From contig JAEETF010000030.1 of assembly GCA_016290195.1 (NCBI GenBank), forward strand, positions 1 to 35,727: a stretch of DNA of 35,727 bases, read 5' to 3'. The notes beneath the pieces were generated by a model. The model was not told the origin of the DNA. It did not search any database and worked only from the letters and a program-made list of their open reading frames with translations. The DNA comes from Bacilli bacterium (GTDB taxonomy: Bacteria; Bacillota_I; Bacilli_A; RF39; UBA660). How positions within the stretch are numbered: position 1 is the stretch's first letter; the number at the start of each line of letters is the position of its first letter. A program made the position numbers and the translations under genes. Below, in pieces: positions 3,210 to 35,299 of this stretch.

Positions 3210-3304
3210 ACGCAAAATAATTATATCAAACATTAATTTAATTTACAAGTATTTATGTTTAAAAATAGAAACTTGTGCATACTATTAATGTTTGGAGGAA
3301 ATAC

Positions 3305-5150
3305 TATGCATAAAGAAAAAATAATATTTAGTATTTTATCAATTTTTTTAACAATTTCATTAATATATTATATTTTAATTTTTAAAAATATTGAGAATGT
3401 ATTTAGATTAATAATTATTAGTATTTTAATAATTATTGATATTGTTATTTTAGTAAAAATATGGAAGTCTAAATTAACTTTTACTAAAGGAGTATTCTTT
3501 TGTACATATATTTTATTTCTTATGGTAGCAATTACTAATTTAAAAGACATATATGGTAATTTAAAGAGTATTAGTGCTTCATATAGTATATCTGGTAGTA
3601 GTATAGTAAAACTCAAAGGAAAAGAGCTAAATAATAGAAAAATAGGGGTATTATTTGATGATATGGAACATTTAAAAGTGTTATCATTTTATAATTTAGA
3701 ATTAGTAGTTGAAAATAGTTATTTAGATATATTAAATGATTTATATGAAGAAAAAATATATTATGCCTATTTACCATCTAATTATATTCAAATGTTTAAT
3801 ATGTTAGAACAGTATAAGTCAATTGAAAATGATACTGAAGTAATATATACTAATTATAAAAAAGTAAAAATTGAAAATAATAATATTGATATTATTAATA
3901 ATCCATTTAGTATATTAGTAATGGGTGTTGATTCTAATTCTGAAAGTTCATTTAATGGTGATGCTTTAATATTAATAACATTTAATCCTAAAACATTAAA
4001 ATCAACTGTTTTAAGTATACCAAGAGATACATATACTAATATTACTTGTTTTAATAACAATAGAAAAAATAAAATTACTCACGCTGCTTGGTATGGTGAA
4101 GATTGTATGATATCATCAATAGAAAATTTATTTGATATTAAAATTAATTATTTTGTAAAAATAAATTTTGAAGGATTTGTATCTTTAGTAGATTTATTAG
4201 GTGGTATAGAAGTAGATGTTCCTATTTCTTTTTGTGAACAAGATAGTAAAAGAAATTTTGATAATCAAATATGCCTTGAAAAAGGATTAAAAAATTTAAA
4301 TGGTGAAGAAGCACTTGCACTTGCAAGACATAGAAAAACGATAAATGATTTTATTAGAAATGATAATCAAAAAATAATTCTTGAATCATTAGTAAAAAAA
4401 ATAAGTAATGACTTAAGTATTGATAAGTTAAAAGGAATATTAAATATTATTAGTAAAAATATAACTACCAATATGAGTATAGATAATATTATGAATTTAT
4501 ATAATTTAGTATCTAAGAAAGATTTGCTTTCAAAAAGTCAAATTCTTAAATTAGAAGGTGAAGATGCATATATATATGATTATGATTTTATTCATAATGA
4601 AGGAATGGATATGTTACTATATGATTTTGTACCTAATAATGATAATATTAATTATGTATCGAGTATAATGCAAGAAAACTTATATGGGAAAGTAAATAGT
4701 GCTATTAAAGATAGAAGCGTTATATTATTACCAGAATTTAATAATATTAATGAAGCTAAGGATTTTTGTAATAAACATAATATTATATTAGATATAGAAT
4801 ATAAAGATAGTAATAGTGATGGCGTTGTTTTAAGTCAAAATATACCACCAAATACTGATATTGATTATATATCTGATTTAACAATTGAAGTATCTAAAAA
4901 GAAAGAAAAAATAAATTGTTTAAGTGAAGAATATAAAAATAGTGATAAATGTATTATTCCTAATTTTATCGGTAAGGATTATGATGAATTTAAAACTTGG
5001 TTAAAACAAAATAATTATAGTTTTATAATAAACACTAATACTATTAAAGATAATGATAATAAGGGAAAGATAATAAAGCAATCTATAAGTGGAGTATATA
5101 TAGTAGATTTAATTGGTAAAAAAATAGAAATAACTTATGTCGAAAAATAA
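3305..5150 (+). CDS. LytR-CpsA-Psr (LCP) family protein with C-terminal PASTA-like repeats
   Basis: VMGVDSN, DALILITFNP, LSIPRDTYT, LVDLLGGIEVDVP, GEEALALARHR; C-terminal VILLPEFNN... and CIIPNFIGKDYDEFKTWLKQNNY... segments. ORF opens at 3255, but ATG 3305 follows GGAGGA. Confidence 0.88.
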
Positions 5151-21283: not shown

Positions 21284-21682
21284 ATGAAAAATAAAGGATT
21301 TACCTTAGCAGAAGTATTAGGTGTGGTTGTAATATTAGGTTTATTAGTAATAGTTTCTTTCCCACCATTATTGAATCAATTAAAAAAATCAAAAAATACT
21401 TTAAGTGAAGCAGAATTAAAAATATTAGGTGAAGCTGCTGGCTTATATATAGATGATCATCTTAGTAATTATCCAACTGTTGAAGATAATGTTTATTGTA
21501 TTAGTCTTGATACACTTGTTAAAAATGGATATCTAAAATCACCAATTATTGATGCAACTACAAATGAAGAAATTAATGAAGTAAATAATGAAATTAGAGT
21601 TGTTATTAATGGTCAAAATGATTATTCATATGATTTAAGAGATAAAACAACAAGTGATAAATGTGTAGAAATTAGAGCTTAG
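21284..21682 (+). CDS. Type IV pilin-like / pseudopilin protein
   Basis: MKNKGFTLAEVLGVVVILGLLVIVSFP prepilin cleavage/methylation motif. Confidence 0.88.
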   Translation: MKNKGFTLAEVLGVVVILGLLVIVSFPPLLNQLKKSKNTLSEAELKILGEAAGLYIDDHLSNYPTVEDNVYCISLDTLVKNGYLKSPIIDATTNEEINEVNNEIRVVINGQNDYSYDLRDKTTSDKCVEIRA

Positions 21683-24510: not shown

Positions 24511-24533
24511 AAAAGAGTACTTAGTACTCTTTA
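24510..24533. terminator. Bidirectional terminator
   Basis: AAAAAAGAGTACTTAGTACTCTTTAATTT. Confidence 0.7.
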
Positions 24534-27464
24534 ATTTGTTGTATTATTATTTGTATTACTATTGTTATTGTTGTTTGTATTTGTTTTAGCAACATAATTA
24601 ACAGTTCTTGTTAATACCTTTTCTTCACCTTTGTAAGTAACAACATATGTAATTGTATATGTATCAGTTTTATTTATATCAATTTCGCTAAAACTATTAA
24701 GTGACTTTTTATCAGATTTTCTAACAATAGTTATATCTGGATTTTTAGATGTAACTGCTGTTTTAGTAACATCTTTACCATTTTCTTTTATAGTTACTGA
24801 TTGATCAGTATATTTTTGACCAACAGTAATATCAATAGTTTCTTTACCAGCTAATTCTATTTCGATATAATCATCAGCTACATGTTTAACATTAACACTT
24901 TTACCATCACTCATATTTGCTTTAAAGATACTATAACAAGTCTTAACAATATATGTATAGTCAGTATCTTTTTTGTCATTATCAAATGATGTAGTAAATG
25001 TTTTATCTTTAGTAAATCCTAAGAATTCTTCACCACTAGATGTTTTTCTATAAACGTTATATCCAACTTCACCAATATATCCTTGATTATATTCTAAACG
25101 AGCATTTATTTCTTTTTGAAGAGTTCCTTCATCTTGGAATATACTAGATAATAGTTTTTTAATATATTCTGGGTTTATAGCATCAGGAGTAGCAATACCA
25201 TCCCAAGTAAGAACTACTTTTTTATTATCCTTAATTTCAGCTTTTAAATTACTTACATTATCAAGTTTTGAATATCTAGTAGATACTTCGGTTGGTTCTG
25301 TACCACGTTTAAATAATTCAGTAACTTTTAAATCATCAGGTGTAAATTCACTTGGAAGTTTAGCAGGATTAGTATCTCTTTCAACAGTAACAGAAACAAC
25401 ACTCGAAGGTCTATCAAATGGTATATCTTCTGTAAATATTCCTTCAGCAACAGCTTTGAAAATACGTGAGTTTTGACCACTACTAATAACATTGTAATAA
25501 TCTTCATAAACTTGGTCATAACCATACCATACAGCTATTGAATATTGTGGTGTAATACCAGCTACCCAAATATCATTAACAGCATTATTTGGAAGATTAT
25601 ACTCATCAAATATTGCTTGTGGGAAATTAGATGTACCAGTTTTGGCACCAAATGTTACACCATTAACGTATGAATAACGTCCAAGTGCAGAACCAGCGGT
25701 TGAAACTAATACACTTGAAATCATATAAGCGGTATCTTCTCCCATAGCTCTTGTTTTTTGTACTTTTCTATTATATACTTCACCAGAATCACGGAATACT
25801 ATTTTAGTGAAACTATAAGGTTTAATATAGTAACCACCATTAGCAAATGCTGCATAAGCTGCTGCAAGCGATAATGGACATTCTCCTTCATATCCACCTA
25901 AGGCATGTGATTCATATAAACCATCTTTATCATCAGGGGAAAGACCTAAACCTCTAACAAATTGATCAATATTATCACGATTATTAGCTTGGAAAGCTTT
26001 AAGAGCTGGAATATTCCAAGAACCCATTACAGCTTCTCTTAAAGTTAATATTCCATTATAAGTATAATTCCAATTATCAATTCTTAATCCACTACTATAA
26101 GCATGTGGTTCATCTCCAAAAAGGGTATATGTAGACCAGTTTTCAAATTCAATACCAGGACCATAATCATATAAAGGTTTAGCAGTAGAACCAATATGTT
26201 TTTTAATCATAGTAGCATAGTTATATTGACGAAGACCGTCATTATTTCTTTTACCACCAATTGCAACAATTGCACCAGTATTAACATCAACAACAGCAAT
26301 ACCTGCTTGAACACGATCATTTTGCCATTCATAAGTATTTCCAGTTACAGGACTTTCAACACCTTGCATAACACTATTAACATGATCTTGTTTTGTACGA
26401 TCCATAGTTGTCCAAATTTCCATTGGTGTGTCATATGGATCAATTTCTAATCCTTCTTCGGCATACATATCTATAACATCTTGAACAACCATATCAATAA
26501 ATTGTTGATACTCTCCACCTTGAGATTCATGTTCTTTAAGAATAAGTTTATCAATAGTCATTTCTCTAGCTATTAATCTTTCTTCTTCAGTAATGTATCC
26601 ATGATCTTCCATAAGTTGAAGAACAATTCTTCTTCTTTCTTCGGCAGCCTCAGGATCTAGATATGGGTCATAAGCATTAGGTGCTTGGAAAAGACCAGCA
26701 ATCATAGCAGCTTCAGCAAGGTTAACATCTTTAGCATGTTTTCCAAAATATGTTAAACAAGCTTGTTCAACACCATAAGCTCCATTATTAATAACTGTTG
26801 TTCCACCTAAGAAATTATAGTTAGCATAGAATTCAAATATTTCTTTTTTAGTATAATTTTTTTCAATTTTAAATATTGACATATAAATATCTGTAAATTT
26901 TCTTTTAATACCTTCTAAACCAGAAGCAGCTTTGTTGAATTTTTTATCGGTAACACTATTTTTAGATATTTGCATTGTAAGAGTAGAAGCACCACCGGCA
27001 TCTTGTCCCATTGCTTGTCCAAAACTTGCTTTAGCAAAACGAGGTAAATCAAAACCATTATGAATGAAAAATCTTGAGTCTTCAGTAGCTATAATTGCAT
27101 CTATTAAAACTTCTGCCATATCTTCAAAGGCAATTTTCTCACGTTTTTCATTTCCTATTTTAGCTATCATTTGCCCATTCGCATCATAAATAATAGTAGA
27201 TTCTTGTTGATATAGATTTTTAGGATCAAAATCAGGAGCATTTTTAATAATTGAAGCAATAAATATAATTCCTGCAGTTACAACAGCTAAAATCGCAATA
27301 ATAATTATAATAAGAAAAATTTTAAGCATCATCATTATATTATCTTTTTTGATTCTAAATTTTTTCTTTGTTTTAACCGCATTATTATTTGGGTTATCAA
27401 CATTAATTTTCTTTTCTTTTTTTGAACCCTTTTTAAATAGATTTTCCTTTTTTAATTTTTTCAT
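24531..27464 (-). CDS. Class A penicillin-binding protein (PBP1A) with C-terminal extension
   Basis: GT51: AIIATEDSRFFIHNGFD, GGASTLTMQISKN; transpeptidase: IGSTAKPLYDYG, GAKTGTSNFPQ; FN3-like and Asn-rich C-terminus. Confidence 0.94.
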   Translation of the reverse strand: MKKLKKENLFKKGSKKEKKINVDNPNNNAVKTKKKFRIKKDNIMMMLKIFLIIIIIAILAVVTAGIIFIASIIKNAPDFDPKNLYQQESTIIYDANGQMIAKIGNEKREKIAFEDMAEVLIDAIIATEDSRFFIHNGFDLPRFAKASFGQAMGQDAGGASTLTMQISKNSVTDKKFNKAASGLEGIKRKFTDIYMSIFKIEKNYTKKEIFEFYANYNFLGGTTVINNGAYGVEQACLTYFGKHAKDVNLAEAAMIAGLFQAPNAYDPYLDPEAAEERRRIVLQLMEDHGYITEEERLIAREMTIDKLILKEHESQGGEYQQFIDMVVQDVIDMYAEEGLEIDPYDTPMEIWTTMDRTKQDHVNSVMQGVESPVTGNTYEWQNDRVQAGIAVVDVNTGAIVAIGGKRNNDGLRQYNYATMIKKHIGSTAKPLYDYGPGIEFENWSTYTLFGDEPHAYSSGLRIDNWNYTYNGILTLREAVMGSWNIPALKAFQANNRDNIDQFVRGLGLSPDDKDGLYESHALGGYEGECPLSLAAAYAAFANGGYYIKPYSFTKIVFRDSGEVYNRKVQKTRAMGEDTAYMISSVLVSTAGSALGRYSYVNGVTFGAKTGTSNFPQAIFDEYNLPNNAVNDIWVAGITPQYSIAVWYGYDQVYEDYYNVISSGQNSRIFKAVAEGIFTEDIPFDRPSSVVSVTVERDTNPAKLPSEFTPDDLKVTELFKRGTEPTEVSTRYSKLDNVSNLKAEIKDNKKVVLTWDGIATPDAINPEYIKKLLSSIFQDEGTLQKEINARLEYNQGYIGEVGYNVYRKTSSGEEFLGFTKDKTFTTSFDNDKKDTDYTYIVKTCYSIFKANMSDGKSVNVKHVADDYIEIELAGKETIDITVGQKYTDQSVTIKENGKDVTKTAVTSKNPDITIVRKSDKKSLNSFSEIDINKTDTYTITYVVTYKGEEKVLTRTVNYVAKTNTNNNNNSNTNNNTTN

Positions 27465-32173: not shown

Positions 32174-32198
32174 GAAAGGTTAATAACCTTTTTTATTT
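32174..32198 (+). terminator. Terminator
   Basis: AAAGGTTAATAACCTTTTTTATTT. Confidence 0.7.
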
Positions 32199-32251
32199 GA
32201 CTAAATGAGCCTTTAGTGATATACTAAGTCGACAAAGGAAGTGGGGAGTTT

Positions 32252-35200
32252 ATGAAAAAGAAAATTAGTTATTTAATATTGTTTCTTGGTTTATTCGTAT
32301 TTTCAAATATGAATAGTGCAAAAGCATTAATATCAGAAACAGATTCTAGGTGCGGAGGATTTTATGTTCAATATCAAACATTAGATGGTAATGCAGCTAG
32401 TGCAAAGTTTATAAAATTAAATGATTATTATACACAACTTGATACGCCAACAAAAGTTGGTTATAAATTTGCAGGCTGGTATTATGATCAAAATTTAACA
32501 CAAAGAGTATATGATACAAGAGCATTATATTTATCAAATAATTATAAAGTTAAATCAAATAATACATGTCCAGTAGTTACTTTGTATGCTAAATGGGAAT
32601 TTAATCAAGATACAAGATATCAAAATTGTAATAATGGTTTTAGATTAATTTATCACTATAATAATCCATTACAAACTGATGAAGATTTATTTGTATCAAA
32701 TAATGGTATTTTTGGTTTAAATATACCAACAAGAGATGGATATACATTTGGTGGTTGGTATTATGATACATATTTTACTCAACCAGTATATGCTAAAAAA
32801 GAAGTAGATCTTGATAGTAGATATAAAATACAAAACTATAATGGTTGTTCAGTTATACATATATATGCTAAATGGAATTCAAATACTAAAACAGAAGAAT
32901 CATGTGGTGGTTTTTATGTTAAATATAATACAATGAATGGTGATCAATTAAATCAAACATTTGTTAGAAGTTATGATTATTATGCAACATTAGCAACTCC
33001 AACAAGAGTAGGATATAATTTTGCGGGTTGGTATTATGATGCTAGCTTAACTCAAAGAGTTAATGATAATCGTGCAGTTTATTTATCAGATAATTATAAA
33101 GTTAAATCTATGTATGAATGTCCTAGTGTAACTTTATATGCAAAATGGGAAGCAGTTACTAAAACAGAAGAATATTGTGGTGGATTTAATGTTAACTATA
33201 ATCCAATGAATGGAAATCAAGTAAAACAAGTATTTATTAAAACAAATGATTCTTATACAACATTTGAGGTACCAACAAGAAGTGGTTATAACTTTGTAGG
33301 TTGGTATTATGATGCAAATTATAATACAAAAGTAAATGTTACAAAGGTAAGTCAATTATCTAATTCATATAAAGTACCAACAAATAATTGTCCAACAGTA
33401 ACATTATATGCAAGATGGGAAAAGGCAAGTGAAACATCATATTATACAGAAGAATATTGTGGTGGATTTAATATAAAATATGATTCAAAGAATGGAAATC
33501 AAATTAAGAAAGTATTTATTAAGTCAAATGATAATGTAACATATTTAGATACTCCAACAAAAAATGGATATAAATTTGCTGGTTGGTATTATGATGATAG
33601 TTATAAAACAAAAGTAGATGTATCAAAAGCAAGTCAGCTTTTAGACTTATATAAATTCCCAAGTAATAGTGACTGTCCAACAGTGCATTTATTTGCTAAA
33701 TGGGAAAAAGTAAGTGAAACATCATATTATACAGAAGAGTATTGTGGTGGATTTAATATAAAATATGATCCAAAGAATGGAAATCAAATTAAGAAAGTAT
33801 TTATTAAGTCAAATGATAATGTAACATATTTAGATACTCCAACAAAAAATGGATATAAATTTGCCGGTTGGTATTATGATGATAGTTATAAAACAAAAGT
33901 AGATGTGTCAAAAGCAAGTCAGCTTTTAGACTTATATAAATTCCCAAGTAATAGTGACTGTCCAACAGTGCATTTATTTGCTAAATGGGAAGAAGAACAA
34001 AAAACAGAAGAATATTGTGGTGGCTTTAATGTAAGATATCAAACATTAGATGGTAGTGCTGTTAAAGAAGTATTTATAAAAACAAATGATTATTATACTA
34101 GTTTAGAAACTCCAACAAGAAGTGGTTATAAATTCTTGGGTTGGTATTATGATATTAATTTCACTAAACCTGTAAATGATTCTAAAGCTGGTAATTTATT
34201 AGACGCTTATAAAACGAAATCAAGTGTAGGTTGCCCAGTAGTTAATATATATGCAAAATGGGAAAAGATAGCTGAAACAATGTATCAAACAGAAGAATCT
34301 TGTGGAGGATTTAGAGTTAGATATCAAACTCTTGATGGAACAAATGTAAAAGAAGGTTTTGTTAAAACAAATGATTATAATTCGACACTTGAAATTCCAA
34401 CAAGAAATGGTTATAAATTCTTAGGATGGTATTATGATATTAATCTAACTAAGAAAGTGGATGTAACAATTGTAAGCGCACTTTCAAGTGATTATAAAGT
34501 TAAGTCAAGTACATCTTGTCCTTTAATTAATATATATGCAAAATGGGAACCAGAACAACAAGAAGTTCATCAAAATCCTAATTGTGGAGGATTTAACGTA
34601 AGATATTACACAAATGATAATAATCTTCCAACAAATACTTTCATAAAATACAATTCTATGACAAATTTATATATTCCTGTAAGAGAAGGATATACATTTG
34701 GAGGATGGTATTATGATGAAGCACTTTTACAATCAGTTACTACTGATAAAGCAATTTATCTATCAAATAATTTCATTATTAATAATGACAGTGTTTGTCC
34801 ATATATAAATTTATATGCTAAATGGTTAAAAAGATATGATTTAAATAATGCTTCAGTATCTATTCCAGAATCGATGACTAATGTTGTAAATATTGAAGTA
34901 AAAAAATATGAAGACCCAAATCAAATTACAACTTTAAGATCATTTAATGAATTAAATAAAGTAAATTATTCAGTTTATGAAATAGATTTATATGATGAAG
35001 GTCAAAATAAAGTACAACCTGATGGAATGGTAAGAATTGAATTTGATATTCCTGCAAATTTAAGAAATACTAAATTAATTGTTTATCGTCTTGAAGGTAG
35101 TGAATTAATCCCATATACAGTAACAGTTATTAATAATAAAGCAACTATTGATACAAATCATTTTAGTACTTATATTCTTGCTGAAAAACAAGAAGCAAGT

Positions 35201-35299
35201 AGTACTGGAGTTAATAAATTATTTGTATTTATTGGAATGGTAGCATTCTTAGTTGCAGTTAGACTTTTACTTATGAAAATAAGAAATAAAATGGCTTAA
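32252..35299 (+). CDS. Secreted/membrane-anchored InlB B-repeat (Flg_new-like) multi-repeat surface protein
   Basis: Signal peptide; nine repeats of ~80-95 aa with core TPTRxGYxFxGWYYD...(C)PxVxLYAKWE; C-terminal TM KLFVFIGMVAFLVAVRLLL + KIRNK. Confidence 0.88.
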   Translation: MKKKISYLILFLGLFVFSNMNSAKALISETDSRCGGFYVQYQTLDGNAASAKFIKLNDYYTQLDTPTKVGYKFAGWYYDQNLTQRVYDTRALYLSNNYKVKSNNTCPVVTLYAKWEFNQDTRYQNCNNGFRLIYHYNNPLQTDEDLFVSNNGIFGLNIPTRDGYTFGGWYYDTYFTQPVYAKKEVDLDSRYKIQNYNGCSVIHIYAKWNSNTKTEESCGGFYVKYNTMNGDQLNQTFVRSYDYYATLATPTRVGYNFAGWYYDASLTQRVNDNRAVYLSDNYKVKSMYECPSVTLYAKWEAVTKTEEYCGGFNVNYNPMNGNQVKQVFIKTNDSYTTFEVPTRSGYNFVGWYYDANYNTKVNVTKVSQLSNSYKVPTNNCPTVTLYARWEKASETSYYTEEYCGGFNIKYDSKNGNQIKKVFIKSNDNVTYLDTPTKNGYKFAGWYYDDSYKTKVDVSKASQLLDLYKFPSNSDCPTVHLFAKWEKVSETSYYTEEYCGGFNIKYDPKNGNQIKKVFIKSNDNVTYLDTPTKNGYKFAGWYYDDSYKTKVDVSKASQLLDLYKFPSNSDCPTVHLFAKWEEEQKTEEYCGGFNVRYQTLDGSAVKEVFIKTNDYYTSLETPTRSGYKFLGWYYDINFTKPVNDSKAGNLLDAYKTKSSVGCPVVNIYAKWEKIAETMYQTEESCGGFRVRYQTLDGTNVKEGFVKTNDYNSTLEIPTRNGYKFLGWYYDINLTKKVDVTIVSALSSDYKVKSSTSCPLINIYAKWEPEQQEVHQNPNCGGFNVRYYTNDNNLPTNTFIKYNSMTNLYIPVREGYTFGGWYYDEALLQSVTTDKAIYLSNNFIINNDSVCPYINLYAKWLKRYDLNNASVSIPESMTNVVNIEVKKYEDPNQITTLRSFNELNKVNYSVYEIDLYDEGQNKVQPDGMVRIEFDIPANLRNTKLIVYRLEGSELIPYTVTVINNKATIDTNHFSTYILAEKQEASSTGVNKLFVFIGMVAFLVAVRLLLMKIRNKMA
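33427..33990 (+). repeat. Near-identical 285-bp tandem duplication (copies from 33427 and 33712)
   Basis: AAGTGAAACATCATATTATACAGAAGA... repeated with only about four substitutions by eye. Confidence 0.93.

Follow-up and report, generated by a model that had tools for sequence, protein, structure and literature searches.

A nine-repeat Flg_new surface protein with one cysteine pair per repeat: a possible disulfide-stapled stalk in a Bacilli bacterium

The InlB B repeat, or Flg_new domain (Listeria-Bacteroides repeat; PF09479, TIGR02543), has been treated as a stalk domain (PMC9210967). In the beta-grasp fold of the InlB B repeat, a loop connects two edge strands that run parallel (PMC8900821). 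Tandem adhesin domains that contain disulfides have been described in a giant adhesin of Mobiluncus mulieris and in Actinomyces FimA and FimP (PMC10619420). Those domains, from Actinobacteria, are Ig-like isopeptide or ester domains; their intramolecular disulfide links neighbouring strands, and the mapped disulfide joins cysteines 8 residues apart. Here we describe a protein encoded in a 35,727-nucleotide stretch of contig JAEETF010000030.1 (hereafter the window) from a Bacilli bacterium. It shares its sequence family with the InlB B repeat and is predicted to share the fold of the InlB B-repeat structure 2y5p, and both are tandem, exported and anchored. Canonical Flg_new repeats have a pitch of ~70-75 residues and usually no cysteine pair, whereas the window repeats have a pitch of 91-95 residues, a longer loop ahead of the last strand, and cysteines before the first and last strands. 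Like the Mobiluncus and Actinomyces adhesins, the window protein carries tandem extracellular domains on a Gram-positive surface protein, but its modules are of the beta-grasp type, the loop closed by the putative bridge spans 71-73 residues, and it belongs to relatives of the Bacilli. Disulfide-bearing adhesin repeats and Flg_new stalks are thus already known; in the part of the literature naming Flg_new that was available to us, we found no description of a cysteine-paired Flg_new subfamily with two independent pairs and several protein architectures.

The gene is a single open reading frame of 1015 codons on the forward strand (32252..35299), and its coordinates, strand and length were all confirmed. 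Its ATG start lies just downstream of a purine-rich ribosome-binding stretch, AAGGAAGTGGGGAG. Further upstream, a promoter-like site (TTGACT-17-TATACT with a TG ahead of the -10 element; 32197..32225, + strand) suggests that the gene may have its own promoter, this being a consensus match of a kind no more frequent here than in shuffled sequence. The adjoining genes encode RecA, a C26-type glutamine amidotransferase and a GNAT acetyltransferase, none of which has an obvious functional link to the repeat protein.

The protein consists, in order, of a signal peptide, nine Flg_new repeats, a cysteine-free beta-rich domain and, at the C-terminus, a membrane anchor. The signal peptide (MKKKISYLILFLGLFVFSNMNSAKA; 32252..32326, + strand), which we recognised by eye, ends in an AxA-type cleavage site. 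The repeat array begins directly after it, with no separate N-terminal domain. The preliminary description had counted nine Flg_new/InlB-B-like repeats, and the Pfam profile PF09479 indeed matched nine stretches (261.2 bits against a cut-off of 27; E = 3.8e-79); the NCBIfam model TIGR02543 matched at 119.2 bits (cut-off 20.95). From the Pfam matches and the cysteine positions, the repeats, all on the + strand, were placed as follows: repeat 1 at 32333..32602 (Cys34/Cys106); repeat 2, the most divergent, at 32609..32881 (Cys126/Cys199), opening with NCNNGF as had been reported; repeat 3 at 32885..33154 (Cys218/Cys290); repeat 4 at 33158..33424 (Cys309/Cys380); repeat 5 at 33440..33709 (Cys403/Cys475); repeat 6 at 33725..33994 (Cys498/Cys570); repeat 7 at 33998..34267 (Cys589/Cys661); repeat 8 at 34283..34552 (Cys684/Cys756); and repeat 9 at 34565..34831 (Cys778/Cys849). 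The beta-rich domain of ~110 residues (34847..35176, + strand) matched no Pfam or NCBIfam family. It has relatives at two other loci, L015 and L019 (we use L for loci and G for genomes, with G000 the window's own), and the copy in L019 likewise lies directly upstream of a membrane anchor. The anchor itself (35189..35296, + strand) comprises SSTGVNK, a hydrophobic segment and a KIRNK tail, and is possibly a degenerate sortase signal. Equivalent motifs in relatives read NPETG, NPDTG, NPQTF and NTGINK, and the window's genome encodes three sortases. No internalin-type leucine-rich repeat family matched the protein; there was only a weak NF033188 match across the B-repeat region. Because Pfam recognised no known adhesive domain, the repeats themselves may bind a ligand.

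We next consider the cysteines. The protein contains 18, two in each repeat and none elsewhere, signal peptide and anchor included, which bears out the earlier count. The second cysteine had been placed ~70-80 residues after the first; the exact spacing within repeats is 71-73 residues, and 19-23 residues separate the second cysteine of one repeat from the first of the next. Pairwise identity among the repeats ranges from 33% to 99% (mean 50%), and both cysteine columns are among the 18 of 83 alignment columns that are invariant across all nine. Repeats 5 and 6 are 99% identical, and three other compared pairs differ at 27-37 amino-acid positions. The cysteine codon is TGT at 16 sites and TGC at 2. 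Since the codons vary and the compared pairs differ at so many positions, the cysteine pattern is not merely a product of recent duplication. Given the near-identity of repeats 5 and 6 and the draft state of the assembly (88 contigs), nine could be a minimum set by the assembly, and the protein may have more repeats.

To place the cysteines in the fold, we modelled repeats 8-9 with the C-terminal domain using AlphaFold2 (mean pLDDT 74.5; repeats mostly 80-95), and a relative with four cysteines as a second model (pLDDT 91.4). Confidence around the first cysteine was moderate in both, with block means of 68 for the window repeats and 67 for the relative. Foldseek matched the window model to the InlB B repeat 2y5p (probability 1.00; TM by target 0.62-0.66), at an E-value of only 0.01-0.09 and an rmsd of ~7 for this multi-domain query; a sequence match to InlB was also obtained. 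The four-cysteine model also matched 2y5p (probability 1.00; TM by target 0.63), and its best match was a Treponema sialidase, 10qf (TM by query 0.54). Four strands are predicted in repeat 8 (residues 686-692, 699-705, 721-727 and 758-767). In both modelled repeats, each cysteine stands exactly 2 residues ahead of strand 1 or strand 4; we refer to the cysteine before the first strand as C1 and to that before the last strand as C4. Because the edge strands of the InlB B repeat are parallel and loop-joined (PMC8900821), strands 1 and 4 would be central, parallel neighbours. C1 and C4, each 2 residues before one of these neighbouring strands, should therefore lie opposite one another at the same end of the sheet. 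Structure prediction had been proposed as a check on the disulfide idea, and the predicted topology of repeats 8 and 9 fits a C1-C4 bridge. We consider one disulfide per module likely.

We consider it reasonably probable that the protein is an anchored rod of nine InlB-B-like modules, each holding one intramolecular disulfide, which acts as a stalk or as a binding array. Under this explanation, the protein would be secreted and anchored at the cell surface as a rod of beta-grasp modules, and a thiol oxidoreductase outside the membrane would join C1 to C4 within each module after export. Force would then pass from the linker to C1, across the S-S bond to C4, and along the last strand to the next linker. 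Because the first and last strands form the module ends and should lie side by side, the bridge would carry a pull straight from end to end. It would shield 71-73 of the ~93 residues of each repeat, and just the 19-23 inter-module residues would extend. The outcome would be a short, compact stalk or multivalent binding array that resists proteases, is hard to unfold and does not extend. We infer disulfide formation, these mechanics and the adhesive or stalk role; the stalk role is suggested by analogy. If the explanation is correct, it would add a further route to a non-stretching stalk, beside isopeptide and ester bonds and the disulfides of Ig-like domains.

The most probable of the rival readings is that the cysteines are mostly reduced in the anaerobic gut, serving as redox-responsive thiols that form a disulfide only upon exposure to an oxidant. 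The lineage is probably anaerobic, its relatives being rumen and gut metagenome-assembled genomes. Exported proteins of obligate anaerobes tend to exclude cysteine, and some obligate anaerobes fold a few disulfide proteins through DsbA-like enzymes that lack a partner (PMC12453122). In a 210-kb sample, exported-like proteins contained 0.66 cysteines per 100 residues and cytosolic-like proteins 1.32, the exported-like class being set by hydropathy alone and including errors. The repeat protein, at ~1.8 per 100 residues, stands out against the exported-like value. The preliminary description had called for a search for an extracellular thiol oxidase, and we ran the Thioredoxin, AhpC-TSA and VKOR family profiles. 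VKOR was found in none of the 40 genomes searched, the window's own included, and no AhpC/TSA (SdbA-like) oxidase matched in the window's own genome, where the only Pfam thioredoxin match was a 106-residue protein of the cytosolic type.

The genome does encode a candidate of another kind. A lipoprotein of the same genome (G000:C36:54374-54793; L204 875-1294) contains a thioredoxin-like domain with a CSHC motif and a Ser-Thr-Pro-Thr loop, and is a candidate extracytoplasmic thiol oxidoreductase as judged from its sequence. It resembles PedC/BrcD and bacteriocin transport accessory proteins and is a possible redox partner; TIGR01295 is its best family at 43.9 bits, well under the family cut-off of 120, and 1zma its best solved relative. 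A homologue in the sister genome G001 is 49% identical, and 10 of the 12 genomes that have the paired subfamily contain a match. PedC-like proteins could act as reductases or isomerases. In G001 (C117; L080 1671-2477, - strand) we also observed a membrane-anchored protein whose two thioredoxin-like domains carry CSFC and CHYC; similar proteins of 269-277 residues are present in G003 and G029. While the cysteine-poor exported-like proteins and the missing VKOR are in keeping with free thiols, the paired conservation of the cysteines implies mutual bonding, at least part of the time, and CxxC proteins of the extracytoplasmic type occur widely across the family. We therefore regard mostly reduced cysteines as rather unlikely.

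A bonded state could also take another form, in which the second cysteine of one repeat bridges to the first of the next, or to an adjoining molecule, to give a covalent chain. The short and regular spacing of 19-23 residues between these cysteines would suit such a bridge, and tandem proteins could use it. Three single-domain proteins (L090, L093 and L097) nevertheless keep the cysteine set; pairing is thus possible inside one domain, and pairing between repeats is not needed. C1 and C4 are likewise kept where one domain adjoins another part (L091, L094 and L012). In the model, the second cysteine of a repeat and the first of the next lie at opposite ends of the last strand, with the whole strand between them. 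Finally, repeats 1 and 9 both have two cysteines, although the former lacks a partner upstream and the latter a partner downstream. Bridging between repeats or molecules is, on this evidence, improbable, and the intramolecular C1-C4 bridge is preferred.

Relatives of the repeats were informative because many of them have four cysteines, with a CxxC following strand 2 in addition to C1 and C4. Both pairs occur in G034, G248, G081, G207, G195, G184, G214 and G255, and, by eye, in G261 (L099). C1 and C4 are present without CxxC in the window and in L086 (G001), L088 (G021) and L092 (G105), and CxxC is present without C1 and C4 in repeat 1 of L096 (G214) and in L101 (G134). An apparent C1 in repeat 1 of L096 proved to be the lipobox cysteine, which lies 52 rather than 44 residues ahead of the core. 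We saw no half-pair, that is, a single cysteine of C1/C4 or of CxxC, in the intact domains of the group; L128 lacks C1 because its contig ends there. Loss of individual cysteines in homologues, which the preliminary description had named as evidence against pairing, was thus not seen, and C1/C4 and CxxC are each lost as a unit. In the window, C1 and C4 each stand 3 residues ahead of the first strand hydrophobic; in the four-cysteine relatives this distance is ~7-11 residues, so that loop lengths shift jointly on the C1 and C4 sides.

These patterns bear on a further rival, that C1, CxxC and C4 formed an ancestral zinc site of which the window version is a degenerate or partner-dependent remnant. 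Many relatives do have four cysteines per domain, and the CxxC, located where strand 2 ends, could be close to C1. The two pairs are lost independently, however, with C1/C4 alone in four genomes and CxxC alone in two, whereas one would expect a four-ligand site to decay wholly or residue by residue, and two cysteines by themselves make a poor zinc site. Because the pairs are lost separately, we reject a four-cysteine zinc site, and a metal-binding origin has little probability in our view.

We then asked how widely the paired repeats occur. The window's genome is 1.13 Mb, and genomes of its family are mostly ~1-1.5 Mb. Flg_new matches were present in 140 of 193 genomes of the family. A profile of the paired repeats, by comparison, reached 12 of 291 family genomes at E <= 3e-17, followed by a gap to ~1e-14. 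Across 395 genomes sampled from the whole class, the upper group was reached only by three genomes of this one family, and the best match outside the family scored 51 bits. Because this first profile contained the cysteines, we masked them in profile and targets and reran the comparison. The top 25 entries (>=79 bits, from 12 genomes) all had C1 and C4, with one window repeat counted twice and the window repeats part of the profile; no domain without the pair scored in this range (79 bits and above). Most top entries had built the profile and hence score high, so the absence of unpaired domains is the informative part. In a motif scan of the 414 Flg_new-like domains of all loci, 306 had no cysteine at either position. 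The features we propose for the subfamily, C1, C4 and a long loop before the last strand, are present in all nine window repeats, and the masked profile places these repeats together with the other paired domains. A whole-protein search of genome contigs gave no match, and a contig search with the repeat alignment returned mostly canonical Flg_new proteins.

These data show that a cysteine-paired subfamily of Flg_new, a known stalk domain, is real, in a sample that is small and whose members are related to each other. Of the original proposal of a distinct subfamily with one pair per repeat, distinctness and pairing held with the cysteines masked, and the single pair did not hold generally, many relatives adding CxxC. 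That the protein is an ordinary InlB-B/Flg_new stalk whose unbonded cysteines spread by repeat duplication as a lineage accident is very improbable: repeats 5 and 6 are recent duplicates at 99% identity, but the other repeats retain both cysteines at identities from 33% up, and cysteines occupy these two positions again in about ten genera and in differing architectures. Anaerobic Gram-positives are thought to keep exported proteins free of cysteine, and the subfamily, with cysteines kept or lost only as pairs, offers a clean set of substrates with which to ask if they make disulfides and which enzyme is responsible. We put forward, tentatively, the wider idea that a probably anaerobic lineage related to Bacilli has evolved a disulfide-locked Flg_new domain with two independent pairs, maintained by a PedC-like thioredoxin system and not by VKOR, in inextensible surface stalks, membrane-anchored single-domain proteins, peptidase-type proteins and pilin-like proteins.

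Several further proteins were observed at these loci. In the window's own genome, a 535-residue protein (L036, G000:C65) has 13 cysteines, about three repeats with C1/C4-type cysteines by eye, and a sortase-like NPDTG anchor; it is similar to a protein of G001 (C64) with NPETG. A 764-residue protein (L095, G184:C3) combines a pilin-like N-terminus, GFTLVELLAVIVIL, with one four-cysteine Flg_new domain. A cysteine-paired Flg_new domain stands beside a metallopeptidase-like part with an HEIIH motif in L012 (G021:C16), and beside possible peptidase-like C-terminal parts in L091, L092 and L094. Elsewhere in the window, a LytR-CpsA-Psr protein (3255-5150, + strand) carries C-terminal PASTA domains (Pfam 4.6e-39 and 5.6e-13), an unusual pairing. 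A class A penicillin-binding protein (24531-27464, - strand) has a C-terminal Bact_surface_Ig-like domain, and a 132-residue open reading frame (21284-21682, + strand) begins with a type IV pilin-like N-terminus, MKNKGFTLAEVLGVVVILG.
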